The notes beneath the pieces were generated by a model. The model searched no databases. It had not been told where the DNA came from and saw only the letters and a list, made by a program, of their open reading frames with translations. 40,562 nucleotides of DNA, taken from the NCBI GenBank assembly GCA_017881545.1, contig JADGQU010000002.1, forward strand, positions 1-40,562, read 5' to 3'. The position numbers and the translations under genes are program-made. Of this stretch, positions 5,043 through 22,927 are shown in pieces (position 1 is the stretch's first letter; each line of letters opens with the position of its first letter). This DNA is from Gemmatimonadaceae bacterium. GTDB lineage: Bacteria; Gemmatimonadota; Gemmatimonadetes; Gemmatimonadales; Gemmatimonadaceae.

Positions 5043-6404
5043 TCAGTACTTGGCGAGGTAGTTATCGAGCTCCCACTGCGAAACCTGGGTGATGTACTCC
5101 TCCCACTCGAGACGTTTCGCGGCAAGAAACTGGGCCGTAATGTGGCCACCCAGAGCTTCGGTGATCACATCGTCCTTCTCCAGCTCAGTGCACGCTTCCC
5201 CGAGATTGTGGGGCAAATCGTCGATCCGGAGACGGCGCTTCTCCCGGTGCGACATCTCCCAGATGTTGGTGTTCACCGGCTCCCGCGCATCGGCCTTGGT
5301 CGCGATGCCATCGAGCCCGGCAGCCAGCTGGACCGCCAGCGCCAGATAAGGATTAGCGGATGGATCTGGAATTCGGAGCTCGATTCTGGTCCCTGAGCCG
5401 CGACGATCGGGAATGCGGATCATCGGCGACCGGTTGCGCATCGACCAGGCCACGTTGACCGGCGCTTCAAAACCGGGCACCAGTCTCTTGTAGGAGTTTA
5501 CCAGTGGGTTGGTTATCGCGGTAAAGCCGCGAGCGTGTTTGAGCAGCCCCCCGATGTAGTGGAGCGCCGTGCTGGAAAGCTCCCACTCCGCCTTCTCGTC
5601 CCAGAAAGCGTTTTCCTTCCCGCGGAAAAGCGACTGATGGGTGTGCATGCCGCTTCCATTCTGTCCGAAAACCGGCTTCGGCATGAACGACGCGGTGAGT
5701 CCGAACGTCCGCGCGACATACTTCACCACGAATCGGAACGTCGTGATGTTATCCGCTGTCTTCAGCGCCTCTGCGTACCTGAAATCAATCTCGTGCTGGC
5801 CGTGCGCGACCTCGTGGTGTGCCGCTTCGACTTCGAATCCCATTCGCTCGAGCACATCGACGATCGCGCGCCGCGCATCTTCGCCGAGGTCCGCCGGCGC
5901 GAGATCGAAATAGGAGCCGACGTCATGCGTAATCGTCGAGGGCTCCTCGTCCGCCCGCGGCTTGAACATGAAGAACTCGGCTTCCATCCCCGCGTTCATC
6001 GTGTAGCCGAGCTTGGCGGCCCGGGCGATAACTTTCTTGAGAACTCCCCGCGGATCCCCGGCAAATGGATTTCCGTCAGGAGTGTTGATGTCGCAGATCA
6101 GCCTGGCAACGCGACTCTTCTCGTCACCCCAGGGGAATACCTGAAACGTGCTGAAATCCGGCGCCAGCAGCATGTCCGATTCCTCGATCCGGACGAACCC
6201 TTCGATCGAGGAGCCGTCGAACATCATGTCCCCCGCCAGCGCTTTCTCGAATTGCGATGCGGGGATCTCGACGTTCTTGTTGATGCCGAGGATGTCCGTG
6301 AATTGCAGTCTGAGGAAGCGGACGTTATTGGTGGTGGCGAGATCCAGGATGTCCTGGGCAGTGGCGCCTGAAGTGTCGGGAATCCGGGAGCGATGTCGGG
6401 GCAT
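5043..6404 (-). CDS. glnA: Type I glutamine synthetase (GSI-alpha-like)
   Basis: DGSSIEGFVRIEESDM, NGSGMHTHQSL, NRSPMIRIP, NPYLALAVQLAAGLDG; GFVRIEESD is the GSI-alpha signature; ATG at 6404 preferred over TTG at 6440. Confidence 0.95.
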   Translation of the reverse strand: MPRHRSRIPDTSGATAQDILDLATTNNVRFLRLQFTDILGINKNVEIPASQFEKALAGDMMFDGSSIEGFVRIEESDMLLAPDFSTFQVFPWGDEKSRVARLICDINTPDGNPFAGDPRGVLKKVIARAAKLGYTMNAGMEAEFFMFKPRADEEPSTITHDVGSYFDLAPADLGEDARRAIVDVLERMGFEVEAAHHEVAHGQHEIDFRYAEALKTADNITTFRFVVKYVARTFGLTASFMPKPVFGQNGSGMHTHQSLFRGKENAFWDEKAEWELSSTALHYIGGLLKHARGFTAITNPLVNSYKRLVPGFEAPVNVAWSMRNRSPMIRIPDRRGSGTRIELRIPDPSANPYLALAVQLAAGLDGIATKADAREPVNTNIWEMSHREKRRLRIDDLPHNLGEACTELEKDDVITEALGGHITAQFLAAKRLEWEEYITQVSQWELDNYLAKY

Positions 6405-6491
6405 TGCGGTGAACGTAGCCTTGTTGGCGAATTTTTGCAAATATCGCGCGAAAGTGCGCCAATTCCTTGCGTAATATTGCCCAATTAGCCA

Positions 6492-6507
6492 ATTTGATCG
6501 CTCAAAT
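6492..6507. promoter_or_regulatory. Candidate operator between divergent glutamine synthetase genes
   Basis: Perfect inverted repeat ATTTGA-TCGC-TCAAAT in the GSI/GSIII divergent intergenic region. Confidence 0.4.
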
Positions 6508-6558
6508 GTGTCTGGTTTGCATCTTTCTGACTTACATTCTCATCAGCTCAGATTCCCT

Positions 6559-8784
6559 ATGACAGCCGCCGCCATCACTCTGCGCAAAGCTCTTCTGAAC
6601 GAGATTTCCAAGCGAGAGCCCCGAATCGCCCCCGGTTTCGGGAAGGACGGAATACCCGGGCCGACCTCCCAGTACTTCGGCATCAACATCCTGGGAGTCA
6701 GGCAGCTCCGCGACAAGCTTCCGAGAGAAGTCTTCGGCAGCCTTGCCGCATCCATCCGTCACGGCAAGAAACTCGATCGCGCCATCGCGCCAGTCGTCGC
6801 GCAGGTGATCAAGGAGTGGGCGATCTCGCGCAAGGTGACCCACTTTACCCACTGGTTCCAGCCCCAGACCGGACTTACGGCGGAAAAGCACGACGCGTTC
6901 TTCGCGTTCGATGACGACCGGCAGCCGATGGAATCATTTACCGGCGACCAGCTGATTCAGAGCGAGCCCGACGCGTCGAGCTTTCCCTCGGGTGGATTGC
7001 GCGCGACCTGGGAAGCGCGAGGCTACACGGCATGGAACCCGGCCAGCCCGGTTTTCATCGTCGAGTCCACTGGCGCTCGGACTCTCTGCATTCCCTCAGT
7101 CTTCATCGGCTACAACGGTGAAGCTCTCGACGAAATGACTCCGCTCCTCAGAAGCTCCGATGTGCTTTCGCAGAAATCCACGGAGCTGCTGGAGCTGCTT
7201 GGCGACAAGGGAGTGCAGCGGGTCTTCACGACGCTTGGACCCGAGCAGGAATATTTCCTCATCGATCGCGCGCACTTCGCAATGCGCCCGGATCTCGTGA
7301 TGGGCGCCCGCACGCTCATTGGCGCTCCGCCGCCGCGCGGTCAGCAGCTCGAGGATCACTATTTCGGCGGAATCCCGGAGCGCATCCAGGGATGCATTTC
7401 CGAAGCAGAGTTCGAGCTGTACAAGCTCGGCGTACCGATTACGACACGCCACAATGAAGTCGCGCCTTGCCAGTTCGAGATGGCGCCGTATTTCGAGGAG
7501 ACCGATCTCGCCGTCGATCACAACATGCTCGTGATGGCGACACTGCGGCGCGTAGCGCTGAGACACGGCCTGCAGGCACTGCTGCACGAGAAGCCGTTCG
7601 CCGGCATCAACGGCTCGGGAAAACACTGCAACTGGTCGATGTCCGTCATCGCCGATTCGCCGGACCTCGACGGCTTGAATCTCCTCAAGCCCGGAAAGAC
7701 ACCCCACCAGAACATTCGCTTCCTCGCCTTCCTGGCCGCGGTGCTCAAAGGAGTCCACAAGCATTCCGGACTCCTTCGCGCCGGCATCGCGACCTCGGGC
7801 AATGAGCACCGGCTCGGTGCCAACGAAGCCCCGCCCGCCATCATTTCCATTTTCATGGGCGACATGCTCACCAAGGTCATCGAGGAGATCGCCGCGGGAA
7901 AGAGCTCCGGGTCCGCCGAGCAGCAGATGATCAAGCTGGGAGTCGCGAAGCTGCCGGAAGTTCAGCGCGACAATACCGATCGCAATCGCACGTCTCCCTT
8001 CGCGTTCACGGGGCAGAAGTTCGAGTTCCGCGCCGTGGGATCCTCGGCCTCGATCGCGTTCCCGGTCGCGCTCCTGAACACCGTCGTCGCGGATTCGATT
8101 GGCGAGATCACGGATTCGCTGCGTGAGACTCTCAAGAAGACGAAGTCGGTGGACGACGCGGTGCTCAAGGTCGTGCGAGAGGTGTTCAAGGACACGTCAG
8201 CCATTCGCTTCGAGGGGAACAACTACTCGGAAGAGTGGGTGATCGAGGCGAAAAAGCGTGGCCTTCCAAACCTGCGCCGGACTCCGGAGGCTTTGAAGGA
8301 GCTCGTGTCCAAGCAGTCGCGCGCGCTCCTCACCAAGCTCGGAGTCCTCACCAAGGAAGAGCTGGAGTCCCGCTATCACGTCCGCGTCGAGCGCTACGTG
8401 AAGGACATGCTGATTGAGCTGCACACCATGCGCGAGATCGTGGACACAATGGTGATCCCGGCGTCCTACGGTTATCTCGGACTGCTTTCCAAGGCGGCTT
8501 CACAGTCGAAGACGGCCGGTGTCGCGGTGATTCCGCAGATAGCAACCGCCAACCAGGTGGGCGAGCTGGTGCAGGAGCTCCAGGAATTTCGCGAGGATCT
8601 GAGCGACGTCATCGCTCGCGTCGAGGCGAAGCACGACAATCCGGCCGGACAGGCGGAGATGCTCACCTCGGAGGGAGCAGACACGATGGCAGAAGTGCGA
8701 AAGGTCTGCGACGCTCTCGAGCTGGTGGTAGGAGATGATTACTGGCCGCTCCCGAAGTACCGGGAAATGCTCTTTCCGGTCTGA
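6559..8784 (+). CDS. glnN: Type III glutamine synthetase
   Basis: GPEQEYFLIDR, NEVAPCQFEMAP, GINGSGKHCNWSM, RNRTSPFAFTGQKFEFRAVGSSAS; length fits GSIII. Confidence 0.95.
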   Translation: MTAAAITLRKALLNEISKREPRIAPGFGKDGIPGPTSQYFGINILGVRQLRDKLPREVFGSLAASIRHGKKLDRAIAPVVAQVIKEWAISRKVTHFTHWFQPQTGLTAEKHDAFFAFDDDRQPMESFTGDQLIQSEPDASSFPSGGLRATWEARGYTAWNPASPVFIVESTGARTLCIPSVFIGYNGEALDEMTPLLRSSDVLSQKSTELLELLGDKGVQRVFTTLGPEQEYFLIDRAHFAMRPDLVMGARTLIGAPPPRGQQLEDHYFGGIPERIQGCISEAEFELYKLGVPITTRHNEVAPCQFEMAPYFEETDLAVDHNMLVMATLRRVALRHGLQALLHEKPFAGINGSGKHCNWSMSVIADSPDLDGLNLLKPGKTPHQNIRFLAFLAAVLKGVHKHSGLLRAGIATSGNEHRLGANEAPPAIISIFMGDMLTKVIEEIAAGKSSGSAEQQMIKLGVAKLPEVQRDNTDRNRTSPFAFTGQKFEFRAVGSSASIAFPVALLNTVVADSIGEITDSLRETLKKTKSVDDAVLKVVREVFKDTSAIRFEGNNYSEEWVIEAKKRGLPNLRRTPEALKELVSKQSRALLTKLGVLTKEELESRYHVRVERYVKDMLIELHTMREIVDTMVIPASYGYLGLLSKAASQSKTAGVAVIPQIATANQVGELVQELQEFREDLSDVIARVEAKHDNPAGQAEMLTSEGADTMAEVRKVCDALELVVGDDYWPLPKYREMLFPV

Positions 8785-12676: not shown

Positions 12677-13734
12677 CCCGGATTCTCGTTGTCGACGACG
12701 AGGAGACTATCCGCCTCGCGCTCCGCAAATTCCTCCGCTCCCGCGGCTACGAGGTGGAGATCGCCGGCTCTGGTGATCTCGCGCTCCAGATCCTGGAAAA
12801 GGAATCGTTCGCCCTCATGCTCTGCGATGTGCGCATGCCCGGAATGACCGGAGTCCAGATCGTTCCAAAGGCGATCGAACGAGATCCGAACCTGGCGATC
12901 ATCATGTTGACCGCCGTCAATGATGCGGCCACCGCGACGGAAGTTTTGTCTTCCGGCGCGACGGACTATATGATGAAGCCCGTCGAGCTCGCCGACCTCC
13001 AGCAAGCTGTCGATCGCGCGCTCCACAAGCGCTCGGAGCTGATGGAGCAACGCCGCCTCGACAAGCTGATTCGCGAGGAAGTCGCCCTTCGCACCGCCGA
13101 GCTGGAGCGGGAGAAGGAAGCCCTGCGGCTCATGTCCATAAGCATCGCCGAGACTCTTATCAACGCCATGGAAGCGAAGGACCTCTACCTGCGGGGCCAT
13201 TCCCAACGCGTTTCCGAGCTGGCCGGCCAGCTCGCCGAGGAGTTGGGCCTCGAGGAGAATGTGTGCGAGGATCTCAGGGTTGCCGGCCGTCTTCACGACG
13301 TCGGCAAAATCGGAATCAGAGAGGAGATCCTCAACAAACCCGGACGCCTTACCGCCGAGGAGTTCGAGCACGTCAAGCAGCACGTGAGAATCGGGCTCGA
13401 CATCCTGGCACCCCTCAATCACATCAAGCAGCCGCTCAAGTACGTCGAGCACCATCATGAGCGCTGGGACGGCGTCGGGTACCCACTCGGCCTGTCGGGC
13501 GAAGCCATTCCTCTCGGCGCCAGAATCCTTTGCGCGGCCGACACCTTTGATGCTCTTACATCCAAACGCGCCTACCGCGAGCCGCTGGAGCCCATCGCAG
13601 CCCTGAATCACCTCCGCGTCGACGCGGGTAAACAGTTCGACCCGGGTGTTTACGATGCGCTGGTCAACGTCATCACGAGGCGAGTAGCGTCTCAATCCAG
13701 CGAATCGGGCCAGACGCGCAAAGCTGCTCCTTGA
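12673..13734 (+). CDS. Response regulator with HD-GYP domain (cyclic di-GMP phosphodiesterase-like)
   Basis: Receiver ILVVDDEETIRLAL...LMLCDVRMPGMTG; HDVGKIGI, HHERWDGVGYPLGLSGEAIPLGARILCAADTFDALTSKRAYR; ATGA overlap with kinase stop. Confidence 0.95.
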   Translation: MTRILVVDDEETIRLALRKFLRSRGYEVEIAGSGDLALQILEKESFALMLCDVRMPGMTGVQIVPKAIERDPNLAIIMLTAVNDAATATEVLSSGATDYMMKPVELADLQQAVDRALHKRSELMEQRRLDKLIREEVALRTAELEREKEALRLMSISIAETLINAMEAKDLYLRGHSQRVSELAGQLAEELGLEENVCEDLRVAGRLHDVGKIGIREEILNKPGRLTAEEFEHVKQHVRIGLDILAPLNHIKQPLKYVEHHHERWDGVGYPLGLSGEAIPLGARILCAADTFDALTSKRAYREPLEPIAALNHLRVDAGKQFDPGVYDALVNVITRRVASQSSESGQTRKAAP

Positions 13735-13750
13735 CGCCGTGTCACCGGCG

Positions 13751-13790
13751 TTGTATTCGGTTTCCACATGTTGTGTTCGGTTTCCACATC
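13751..13790. repeat. 20-bp tandem direct repeat, two copies
   Basis: TTGTATTCGGTTTCCACATG / TTGTGTTCGGTTTCCACATC, 18/20 identical, ~110 bp upstream of the 13898 gene. Confidence 0.9.
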
Positions 13791-13897
13791 TAGAGAAGCT
13801 TTCGGCGCTAGCGTACAAGGCACGCGACGTGCAGCGGGCGAAACTCAGAAAATTCCGCGCTACCCAGCGCGCGTGCTGACATTCTATGGGAGGACTA

Positions 13898-14674
13898 ATG
13901 CCGAGCGGTGAATCAGTGGAGCCATTGCGTTTCGCGGACGACGACGACCAGGACGATCTCGGTGGCTTCAGTCGCGGCAAGCGTTCCTACGACGATGACG
14001 ACGACGAGGATGGCGGCTGGGCGATCAATGAGGATCATAGCGATCGCCTGTGGGATAGCGCTGAAGACGCGGATGACGACGAAGAGGTCGATTCTGATGC
14101 CACGGTCGTAAGCGAAGGCGAAGAGGATGAAGAGGATGAGGAGGAGGATCTCTTCGGCGGCGGCGCTCCGAGAGGAAGAAGGGGCCGGCCCAAGGGATCC
14201 GGGAAAAAGCAGGAGTCGACCCTTGGCGGTGGTGGAACGGGAGGCCTTGGTGGCGCTTCGGGAAATGCCAGCGGAATGAGCGGCAGCTCGGGGTTTGGTA
14301 GCCCGCCGTCAACCGGGTCCAGCACGGCATTCGGAGCTGGAAACTCGGGAGCGGCCGCGCGGACCAGCACTTTCGGCGGCGGAGCCAGTCCAGCCACCCG
14401 GACGACGGCAGCGTCCGGCTCCGGAAGCCGCGCAGGAGCCGCCAAGACAGCCGGCGGCACCAAGAAGAAAGCAGCCAAGGGCCCCCCCCCGAAGTCCTCA
14501 GGCGGGAAGAAATCAGTCAAAAAGAAGTCCTCAGGAGCGCGGAAGCCGGCCCAGAAAGCCGCCGGACGCAAAGCCGCCCCGAAGGCGGCGGCCCGGAAGG
14601 CTTCCAAGGGTGGGGCCAAGTCGCACGGAAAGAGCGGCGGGAGCCATAAGAGCTCGGGTTCGCGGAAGCGCTAG
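13898..14674 (+). CDS. Charge-segregated, disordered, AT-hook/histone-H1-like protein
   Basis: Acidic N-terminus (DDDDQDD, DDDDDEDGG, GEEDEEDEEEDLFGG), RGRRGRPKGSGKK, Gly/Ser linker, Lys/Ala-rich tail; GGGAGGA Shine-Dalgarno. Confidence 0.75.
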   Translation: MPSGESVEPLRFADDDDQDDLGGFSRGKRSYDDDDDEDGGWAINEDHSDRLWDSAEDADDDEEVDSDATVVSEGEEDEEDEEEDLFGGGAPRGRRGRPKGSGKKQESTLGGGGTGGLGGASGNASGMSGSSGFGSPPSTGSSTAFGAGNSGAAARTSTFGGGASPATRTTAASGSGSRAGAAKTAGGTKKKAAKGPPPKSSGGKKSVKKKSSGARKPAQKAAGRKAAPKAAARKASKGGAKSHGKSGGSHKSSGSRKR

Positions 14675-14713: not shown

Positions 14714-14745
14714 GCGCGGTTACTCTCAAGTAACCGCGCTTTTTC
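14714..14745 (+). terminator. Rho-independent terminator
   Basis: GCGCGGTTACT-CTCA-AGTAACCGCGC followed by TTTTTCC. Confidence 0.92.
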
Positions 14746-14768: not shown

Positions 14769-15809
14769 ATGCAGGAGAACGACGAGAGAGAAGGGCCGTG
14801 GCGAAAAATTCTTCTGTCCGGCGGCGCCATCCTTGGCGCGGCGGCTGCCTATAATGCTTTTGCCCGAAAGGGCGTCGACAAGATCACCAACCTGATTGGG
14901 GGCGATGAGGGCGGTTTCGACTGGCGCGACAGACGCGTCGCCTTCACCAAGCGCGGCAAGGGTCCGCCGATTCTGCTGATCCACGGCATTCACGCGGCCG
15001 CGTGGTCGTACGAGTGGAGAAACAACGTCGACGCGCTCGCGCGAACGAATACCGTCTACACGCTGGATCTGCTCGGCTTCGGGATGTCGGAGCGTCCCGC
15101 GATCCGCTACTCGGCGCGTCTCTACATCTCGCTGATCTCCGATTTCGTGAGCAGGGTGATCGACGAGCCCACGGTACTCGTCGCGACTTCGCTCTCGGGT
15201 GCATATGCCATTGTTTTGGCGGCGCGAGACCCGTTGCGTTTCCCCGCCGTGGCTCTCATAGCGCCATCGGGGCTTGTGAGCCTGAACGAGCCCGTAGGCC
15301 TTGGGGGTGAAGCCGGGCGGCTCGTGGTCGATACGCCTATTGCCGGCACCGCCATGTTCAACGCCCTCGTCTCGCGGCCGCAGCTTCGACGCAATCTCAT
15401 TAACGCGTACTCGAACGACTCGCTTGTCACGCACGAGCTGGTTGAGATCTACTACGCGACTTCCCACCAGCGCGGTGCGCGTCACGCGCCAGCCGCATTC
15501 CTCTCCGGCCATCTCAACATCGACGTGCGAAACGCCCTGCGGCGTCTCAGCCAGCCGGCCCTGCTGGTGTGGGGTGAGCAGGGATCGAACGCGCCAGTAG
15601 AGGAATTTCGCGGCTTCCGCGAGATCAAGCGCGATTTCGAGATTTCCGTTTTGTCTCCCGCGGGCGACCTTCCGCACGACGAGCGAGCCGAGGACTTTAA
15701 TGTTATCCTATCCACATGGCTGAATCGCCTGTCGCTCTCCTCCGCGCCCACGCTAAACACGCTCCCTGGAACGCCCGAGGCCTTGCAGCCCACGCGACAG
15801 CTCTTGTAG
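14769..15809 (+). CDS. Alpha/beta hydrolase
   Basis: PPILLIHGIHAAAWSYEWRNNVDAL, YTLDLLGFGMSERP, VLVATSLSGAYAIVLA, QPALLVWGEQGS. Confidence 0.9.
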   Translation: MQENDEREGPWRKILLSGGAILGAAAAYNAFARKGVDKITNLIGGDEGGFDWRDRRVAFTKRGKGPPILLIHGIHAAAWSYEWRNNVDALARTNTVYTLDLLGFGMSERPAIRYSARLYISLISDFVSRVIDEPTVLVATSLSGAYAIVLAARDPLRFPAVALIAPSGLVSLNEPVGLGGEAGRLVVDTPIAGTAMFNALVSRPQLRRNLINAYSNDSLVTHELVEIYYATSHQRGARHAPAAFLSGHLNIDVRNALRRLSQPALLVWGEQGSNAPVEEFRGFREIKRDFEISVLSPAGDLPHDERAEDFNVILSTWLNRLSLSSAPTLNTLPGTPEALQPTRQLL

Positions 15810-16261
15810 ACGCGGCTGGAGTCCGACCAACGAACGCTTCAGCGCGAGCGGCGCCGAGCGCGCGAGCAGTTCGGTTTTACGTAGCGAGTGGATTGCTCGA
15901 TCGGCCCGAGGGCACGGGCACCGGTGCGACATATGGGTACCGGCACCTCCTCCAGCTGCTCTCGATCAAGATCCGGCAGCGCGAGGGGCAAAGCCTCGAC
16001 ACCATCCGGAGCGAGATGCGCGATGTCACCGGTGATGCGCTCGAACGGAAGATCGCAACGTCACTTGCGCCAGCGCTCGATTCCGGCGCATACGAAGCTG
16101 TCTCCCACGACGATGACATTTCGCTTCGCTGGCACCGTCTTCCCGTCGCCGACGGAATCGAGCTTCACGTTCGTGAGGATTCCCCCGCTGCCCGCGAGGA
16201 GGCCGTGATCGCGATGCGTGAGGCAGTGCGCGCGGCGCTCGGCCGCGGCGACATCCGCTGA
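15716..16261 (+). CDS. MerR-like HTH transcriptional regulator
   Basis: SARAVRFYVASGLLDRPEGTGTGATYGYRHLLQLLSIKIRQREGQSLDTI matches MerR wing/recognition layout; overlaps hydrolase by 94 nt. Confidence 0.75.
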   Translation: MAESPVALLRAHAKHAPWNARGLAAHATALVDAAGVRPTNASARAAPSARAVRFYVASGLLDRPEGTGTGATYGYRHLLQLLSIKIRQREGQSLDTIRSEMRDVTGDALERKIATSLAPALDSGAYEAVSHDDDISLRWHRLPVADGIELHVREDSPAAREEAVIAMREAVRAALGRGDIR

Positions 16262-20765: not shown

Positions 20766-22064
20766 CTAGAGTATGCGCCTCAGCTTCTGTGCTCCCCACT
20801 CGAGGATCCTCCCGGAAAGAGCGCGCTTTCTGAACTCGTCGAGCTTTATCTCCTTTGACGACTTGATGTCATTCATGAAGATCGAGTCCATTTGCGCTCC
20901 GAGGTGGCGGTCGAGGGTCACAAGGAGCGACTCGTTGTTGAACGACAGCGAACGGTTGTCGAAGTTCATGGATCCGATGTACGACCATATCCCGTCCACC
21001 ACCATGCTCTTCGCGTGCATCATGGTCGGCTGGTACTCGTAGATCTTTCCGCCTCCCTCAAGCAGCTTCTCGTAGTACGTTCTCCCCGCGTACCAGGTCG
21101 TCTTCACATCCGTCTTGTTGCTCACGGTGATGACCCGAACGTCTACTCCCCGCTTCGCTGCCGCGAGAAGCAGCTGCATGAAATTCTCACCCGGGACGAA
21201 GTATGAGTTGCTGATGTAAAGCGTTTTTCGGGCGCCCGCGATCGACAACGCCAGAAACCTTTCCGCCGATGTGCTTCCGGTACTCGGAATGCTGTACATC
21301 AGGCCGGCTTGCACGTCTCCAACATCGGCGAATGAGCTCTTTGGAAAGAACAGGTCGCCAGTCAGCAGCTCGCCCGTCGCTTCTGCCCACGCCGCCGCAA
21401 ATGCTGCTTGCAGGGCTCCCACGGTTGGTCCCTCGAATCGTACGTTCGTCTCGCGCCACTGGTCCTCGTGGTGTCCGTCTCCGAGCCAGTAGTCGGCGAG
21501 CCCGAAACCACCGGTGTAGCCGATCTTCCCATCGACCACGACCACGCGTACGTGCGATCGCTGCGCGGCTTTCTGCAGTGTGTACCAGCGCAGAGGCCTC
21601 AGCCATTTGACTTCGACGCCGGCGTGCCTGAGACTGTCACGCCATTCCGGCTTGAGCGGCTGAGACCCGAATGCGTCGAGCAGCAACAGCACGCGTACCT
21701 TGTGCTGCGCGCGATCGATCAGGTACTTCGCCATTGTGTCGGCGACCCCGCCGGGCTGTGAGTAGTACATCTGCACCGTCACAGTGCGCTCGGCAGAGGC
21801 TATGTCCTTCCACAATTGGGGATAGGTGCCGTCGCCGTTCAGCAGGATCTGAACGCTGTTGCCGGGATCGATGTGCGTTCCCGTGAACAGCTCGATGCTC
21901 CGGGCGAACAGCGGATCCTCGACGCTTGGCGGTCCGTCCTTGTCGCCTTCCGCGATTACGCTCGTAACCGGCGTATCGTGCGTCACCGACAGGATGCCGA
22001 TTAGGGCCAGAATGAGCCCAAACAGGCATAGGGCCGCGATTGCTATGTACTTGATCAGTGTCAT
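20766..22064 (-). CDS. Cardiolipin synthase / phospholipase D-like protein
   Basis: Two PLD motifs: SHVRVVVVDGKIGYTGGFGLAD and MHAKSMVVDGIWSYIGSMNFDNRS; N-terminal TM. Confidence 0.9.
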   Translation of the reverse strand: MTLIKYIAIAALCLFGLILALIGILSVTHDTPVTSVIAEGDKDGPPSVEDPLFARSIELFTGTHIDPGNSVQILLNGDGTYPQLWKDIASAERTVTVQMYYSQPGGVADTMAKYLIDRAQHKVRVLLLLDAFGSQPLKPEWRDSLRHAGVEVKWLRPLRWYTLQKAAQRSHVRVVVVDGKIGYTGGFGLADYWLGDGHHEDQWRETNVRFEGPTVGALQAAFAAAWAEATGELLTGDLFFPKSSFADVGDVQAGLMYSIPSTGSTSAERFLALSIAGARKTLYISNSYFVPGENFMQLLLAAAKRGVDVRVITVSNKTDVKTTWYAGRTYYEKLLEGGGKIYEYQPTMMHAKSMVVDGIWSYIGSMNFDNRSLSFNNESLLVTLDRHLGAQMDSIFMNDIKSSKEIKLDEFRKRALSGRILEWGAQKLRRIL

Positions 22065-22075
22065 ATTCTCTCTAC

Positions 22076-22927
22076 ATGACCTTCGTGGCCCGTCGGCGAA
22101 TCGCGACGCGTGCTATCGTTCTCGACCGCTCCCTTGAAGCGCTTCCAATCTTCCGACTGAGCGATTCTGCCGAGGACACGGCAATTTCCTTCTCTCCCGA
22201 GAGCGGTGGGCGGTGGCGTGTTCTGCCCAGCCCGGGCGACCGCTTGCCCGGAACATTCGACCAGGACGTGTACATCGAGCTCCTGCATCGCTATCACGAG
22301 GCAGGGGCCCCCGAAGACGGGGTGATAAGCTTTACGCTCCACGCGTTTTTGCGTTCCATCGCCCGGCGCGTCGACGGCAGAACGTACGAGCAGCTTCGGT
22401 CCGCTTTGACGAGGCTCGAGCGGACTACTCTCGAGTCGAGCGGAGTGTACGTTGCGGCAAAAGAAGGACAGCCGCTAGAAGGACGCTTCACCATTCTCTC
22501 CTCAGTTTCGATCGCGCGCCGACGAATGGCCGAGCGCGAACAATTCACCCTGTTTCCCGTGCTCGCCGCGTCGGAACCGGGCGACGCACACGTCACGATC
22601 GGCCCCGCAATCCGCGCGAATATCGCCGCCGGACACACCGTGACCCTCTCTGCAACGCACTACTTGTCGCTCACCAATCCCGTTGCCAGACGGCTCTATC
22701 GCCTGCTGGAAGTCGCGAGGGAGGAGGGGATGGTGACCTGGAGAGTCCCCCTCGCTTCCCTCGCCGAGCAGTTGCCGCTGACCCAGCGATACCCATCCCA
22801 TTTGCAACGAGTGCTCCAGCCCGCTCACGAAATGCTGCTCGCGGCAGGCCTCCTGCGCGACGCAACGTTCCGGCAGCTTAACCGCGATTGGCTCGTGGAC
22901 TACGTGCTGGCCTCCCGCGCCGCCTGA
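22076..22927 (+). CDS. Replication initiator protein A-like (RPA/plasmid RepA type)
   Basis: YEQLRSALTRLERTTLESSGVY, LSLTNPVARRLYRLLEVAREEG resemble plasmid RPA-type initiators; no domain search possible. Confidence 0.6.
   Translation: MTFVARRRIATRAIVLDRSLEALPIFRLSDSAEDTAISFSPESGGRWRVLPSPGDRLPGTFDQDVYIELLHRYHEAGAPEDGVISFTLHAFLRSIARRVDGRTYEQLRSALTRLERTTLESSGVYVAAKEGQPLEGRFTILSSVSIARRRMAEREQFTLFPVLAASEPGDAHVTIGPAIRANIAAGHTVTLSATHYLSLTNPVARRLYRLLEVAREEGMVTWRVPLASLAEQLPLTQRYPSHLQRVLQPAHEMLLAAGLLRDATFRQLNRDWLVDYVLASRAA

Follow-up and report, generated by a model that had tools for sequence, protein, structure and literature searches.

A predicted disordered protein of Gemmatimonadaceae with a conserved motif in its acidic head and a histone H1-like tail

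In this work, a 40,562-nucleotide stretch of DNA (the window) from a Gemmatimonadaceae bacterium with a genome of ~2.95 Mb was analysed around a single-copy gene at 13898..14674. The gene, like all of its features given below, lies on the forward strand and encodes 258 amino acids plus a stop. The ATG at 13898 is the start common to homologues (MPS/MPG/MPR...), and a ribosome-binding site, GGGAGGA, can be read in front of it at 13888..13894; an in-frame ATG at 13886 is lost in more distant members of the genus. The protein begins with an acidic head (residues 1-86, 13898..14155) holding 39 D/E and 5 K/R, which includes the motif GGWAINEDHSDRLWDSA (residues 39-55, 14012..14062). It is followed by a single AT-hook-like motif, RGRRGRPKGS (residues 92-101, 14171..14200), and by a Gly/Ser/Thr linker (residues 106-180, 14213..14437), fast-evolving, in which G and S make up 37 of the 70 residues at 111-180 and D/E are absent there. 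The chain ends in a Lys/Ala/Ser/Gly-rich, H1-like tail (residues 181-258, 14438..14671) with 26 K/R and no D/E.

Upstream of the gene, a promoter-like pair TTGACG-N15-TGTATT (13731..13757) gave no hit in a strict sigma-70 scan, and its form TTGACG...T[GA]TA[TC]T recurs in most genera of the family. At 13750-13790, a 20-bp direct duplication, TTGT[AG]TTCGGTTTCCACAT, repeats the -10 region, and its second copy is missing from aligned relatives. Between the promoter-like pair and the start, ~60 nt upstream of the ATG, lies a conserved palindrome GGCACGCGACGTGCAGC (13819..13835), which occurs once in its own genome at up to 2 mismatches. It is found as GGCAY-N5-GTGCAGC in the window's genus and about ten others, and many genera lack it. 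No variation is seen in three of its pairs, and C-G or T-G predominates in the fourth, so that covariation gives no means of deciding between a hairpin in RNA and an operator in DNA. The leader matches no known RNA family in Rfam, and its RNA fold is not more stable than those of shuffled sequences. An upstream reading frame starting in the palindrome was rejected, as the frame is not conserved on inspection. Downstream, an intrinsic terminator at 14714..14744, consisting of an 11-bp perfect stem GCGCGGTTACT/AGTAACCGCGC and TTTTT with a fold of -22.3 kcal/mol, was missed by the terminator scan; because of this strong terminator, the gene is probably transcribed alone in the window.

A MerR-type regulator (15716..16261, forward strand; Pfam MerR_1) is the conserved neighbour, separated from the gene in the window by an alpha/beta hydrolase. 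It was found near the gene in all 29 family regions compared, on the same strand in 28 of them, with the MerR proteins 69-98% identical, and it is a possible regulator of the gene. Two sister families keep a MerR relative with no such charge-segregated gene beside it. The other recurrent neighbours are a glutamine synthetase, a zinc-ribbon protein, a menaquinone-biosynthesis protein, an RPA-domain protein and an S41 peptidase. The gene at 22058-22927, whose product has the RPA (replication initiator protein A) domain, is syntenic across the family, and a pair of glutamine synthetase genes that differ in type occupies 5043-8784, adjacent and on opposite strands.

By searching 399 genomes of the phylum with profile A3, orthologues were found in no fewer than 119 of the 139 Gemmatimonadaceae genomes sampled and in none of the 260 others, the total of 119/399 being a lower bound as few candidates were scored per genome. 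The 20 family genomes with no match are in part incomplete or belong to a genus that has positive members; of the 18 other genomes of the window's genus, 17 gave a match. In one sister family, no match at E 0.1 was obtained in 80 genomes. The possibility that the two sister families have an unrecognised homologue next to MerR was also rejected, since none of 17 loci had a charge-segregated reading frame within ~1.5 kb. As far as these searches reach, the gene is restricted to Gemmatimonadaceae and nearly universal there. A phage origin was discarded, as viral contigs held no relative of the protein.

The reading frame is a real gene under strong purifying selection as a protein. For pairs within the genus (pS 0.12-0.74), dN/dS was 0.03-0.09 in the head and 0-0.04 in the hook. 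The linker and tail, where most gaps fall, gave higher values than the head (0.13-0.59 where computable), although in several of these comparisons the synonymous sites are saturated, which makes the ratios unreliable. These values, together with the mixed D/E codons, rule out an overlapping-frame artefact or codon slippage, and they speak against the possibility, raised with the original prediction, that the frame is not translated. It had also been expected that the architecture would be kept despite sequence drift. This holds for the linker and tail, which drift while keeping their composition, but not for the head, which is the most conserved part of the protein.

The charge polarity of the protein, taken at the best split of the chain as the net charge on the right less that on the left, reaches 69; in 20,000 shuffles the mean was 10.4 and the highest value 39. 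After normalisation for length, two short reading frames of the window score higher, so the argument rests on the shuffle test and on conservation, and not on the ranking of reading frames. In 58 of the 59 distinct proteins the bipolar charge lies beyond every shuffle, and the sole exception carries a frame shift in the tail. The acidic-to-basic layout claimed from the single sequence is thus retained by all relatives with an intact tail. In G079 (L073 6210-9131) the frame shifts within the Lys-rich tail and continues into the next gene, a histidine kinase, owing either to an error of assembly or to a true frameshift. The claim of disorder agrees with the AlphaFold2 model (42-row alignment), in which the mean pLDDT is 45.5, no residue reaches 70 and there is one helical turn at 50-53; the protein is thus predicted to be wholly disordered.

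The W-containing motif of the head is near-invariant. G40, W41, D46, L51, W52, D53 and S54 do not vary across two alignments, one of 35 and one of 42 sequences, and the motif can be written GGWAxxxDxSxxLWDS, most members having GGWA[ILV]N[EK]DxSDxLWDS set between D/E runs, with D-L/V-F after it. LWD is present in 57 of 59 distinct full-length proteins (the other two have LWE and LFD) and GW in 53 of 59; genus g20, probably Gemmatimonas, has lost the first W and shows GYGLP or GYGIT instead. The D/E runs on either side differ in detail among members. A head serving purely to brake by charge or to drive condensates would not need such a motif, so the head is probably a docking site and not merely an electrostatic brake, and its conservation would be best explained by a specific partner.

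The hook and the tail are of more familiar kinds. An RGRP core with basic flanks, in line with the GRP core of the original prediction, is present in the 258-aa protein and invariant in its genus, but the family as a whole does not share the AT-hook: GRP was found in 34 of 59 family members, RGR[KR]P in 13 and neither in 12. Multiple hooks per chain were not found, the one RGRP lying at the head-linker junction, and the hook is dispensable, being lost in several genera. The tail varies across the family from G/S/K-rich in the window's genus to KKAAKKPAKK in others. Its likeness to histone H1 is borne out by matches to Pfam HC2 (PF07382) in 7 of 42 relatives (best 1.2e-8), which may reflect composition only. 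The 258-aa protein itself matched no Pfam profile, including HC2, CarD_CdnL_TRCF and Bac_DNA_binding (HU/IHF), so membership of the CarD, HU or HC2 families was rejected. NCBIfam and solved structures gave no informative match; a hit to valine--tRNA ligase within the Lys/Ala tail scored 25 bits against a cut-off of 1783, and one PDB match (E 0.67) is due to chance.

The protein was compared with the closest known systems. HC2 shares the tail composition, although we know of no counterpart of the acidic head in it. The HMGA-like C-terminal domain of CarD from Myxococcus xanthus is unfolded, and its RGRP AT-hooks come after an acidic segment (PMC4374960), an order matched by the head and hook here. 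However, CarD carries four hooks and binds RNAP through an N-terminal fold, whereas the present protein has no folded domain and one hook or none; the W motif in the acidic segment and the long H1-like tail belong to the Gemmatimonadaceae protein. AlgP and PhaF of Pseudomonas have a disordered, K/P/A-rich C-terminal tail resembling histone H1, and their KPAA-repeat tails bind DNA or are proposed to anchor granules on the nucleoid (PMC9239181). AlgP has a predicted helical N-terminus and that of PhaF binds granules, whereas here the N-terminus is acidic and disordered. Eukaryotic HMGA also combines AT-hooks and an acidic region within one disordered chain, with three hooks and an acidic C-terminus (PMC4482583), but here the order is reversed, there is one hook and the tail is Lys-rich. 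In the open-licence literature searched, no description of this combination of parts or of the family was found; the parts are of known kinds.

We hypothesize, with about even confidence, that the protein is a fully disordered chromosome-associated adaptor, for which we infer DNA binding, a partner and charge competition. The cationic tail of all members, and the RGRP hook where present, would hold nucleic acid with little sequence preference, and the GW...LWDS motif of the head would bind one specific partner protein, which we guess to be part of the transcription or nucleoid machinery. The D/E runs and DNA would also be rivals for the tail, which would couple binding of the partner to binding of DNA. 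An adaptor linking a partner to nucleic acid is preferred, with charge competition as a secondary element, because Lys-rich tails (PMC9239181) and RGRP hooks (PMC4374960) bind DNA in the closest studied proteins and because of the conservation of the head. The bipolar charge kept by nearly all of the proteins, the lower dN/dS of the head than of the linker and tail, its hydrophobic motif in an acidic setting, the AT-hook core, the K/A/P tails with their HC2 matches and the predicted disorder are all in favour of the adaptor. Against it stand the single hook, lost in several genera, the HC2 matches, perhaps compositional and absent from the 258-aa protein, and the fact that Lys-rich tails bind RNA or polyphosphate too. 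The same genome also has an ordinary, separate HU, so that no further nucleoid protein is needed for want of one. A bolder version, a chromatin adaptor invented in one bacterial family, in which the W-motif head brings one partner to DNA that the H1-like tail holds and a dedicated leader palindrome tunes expression, is put forward only tentatively.

A reading after the original prediction is a nucleoid protein whose acidic head does no more than autoinhibit electrostatically or drive condensates and has no dedicated partner. The extreme polarity retained in members and the variable D/E runs around the motif are consistent with this, but a charge brake needs composition and not sequence, and conservation is highest in the head, where G, W, L, W, D and S are near-invariant; we consider this explanation unlikely. 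An organiser of granules or polyphosphate similar to AlgP/PhaF, whose tail would hold DNA or polyphosphate and whose head would hold the other side, is equally improbable in our estimate. The K/A/P tails resemble AlgP, a polyphosphate kinase gene occurs in the genome and its relatives, and Gemmatimonas aurantiaca is described as polyphosphate-accumulating in a title cited in PMC9530729, but the kinase is widespread, also in a family in which the gene was not found (f2), and the neighbouring genes have no known tie to polyphosphate. Slightly less probable still is an RNA- or ribosome-associated disordered protein that is autoregulated via its own leader palindrome. A cationic tail does not tell RNA from DNA, and the palindrome is conserved with one occurrence in the genome; however, RGRP in the cases known is a motif for the minor groove of DNA, the leader folds no better than shuffles and many genera do not have the palindrome.

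The adaptor remains the preferred reading, and the orthologues with and without the hook provide a natural comparison of its contribution. Since selection is strongest on an acidic region that is disordered, the protein gives a clear and testable example of a short conserved motif within a bacterial disordered protein. In Gemmatimonadaceae, a widespread family of soil bacteria, this undescribed protein is nearly universal.
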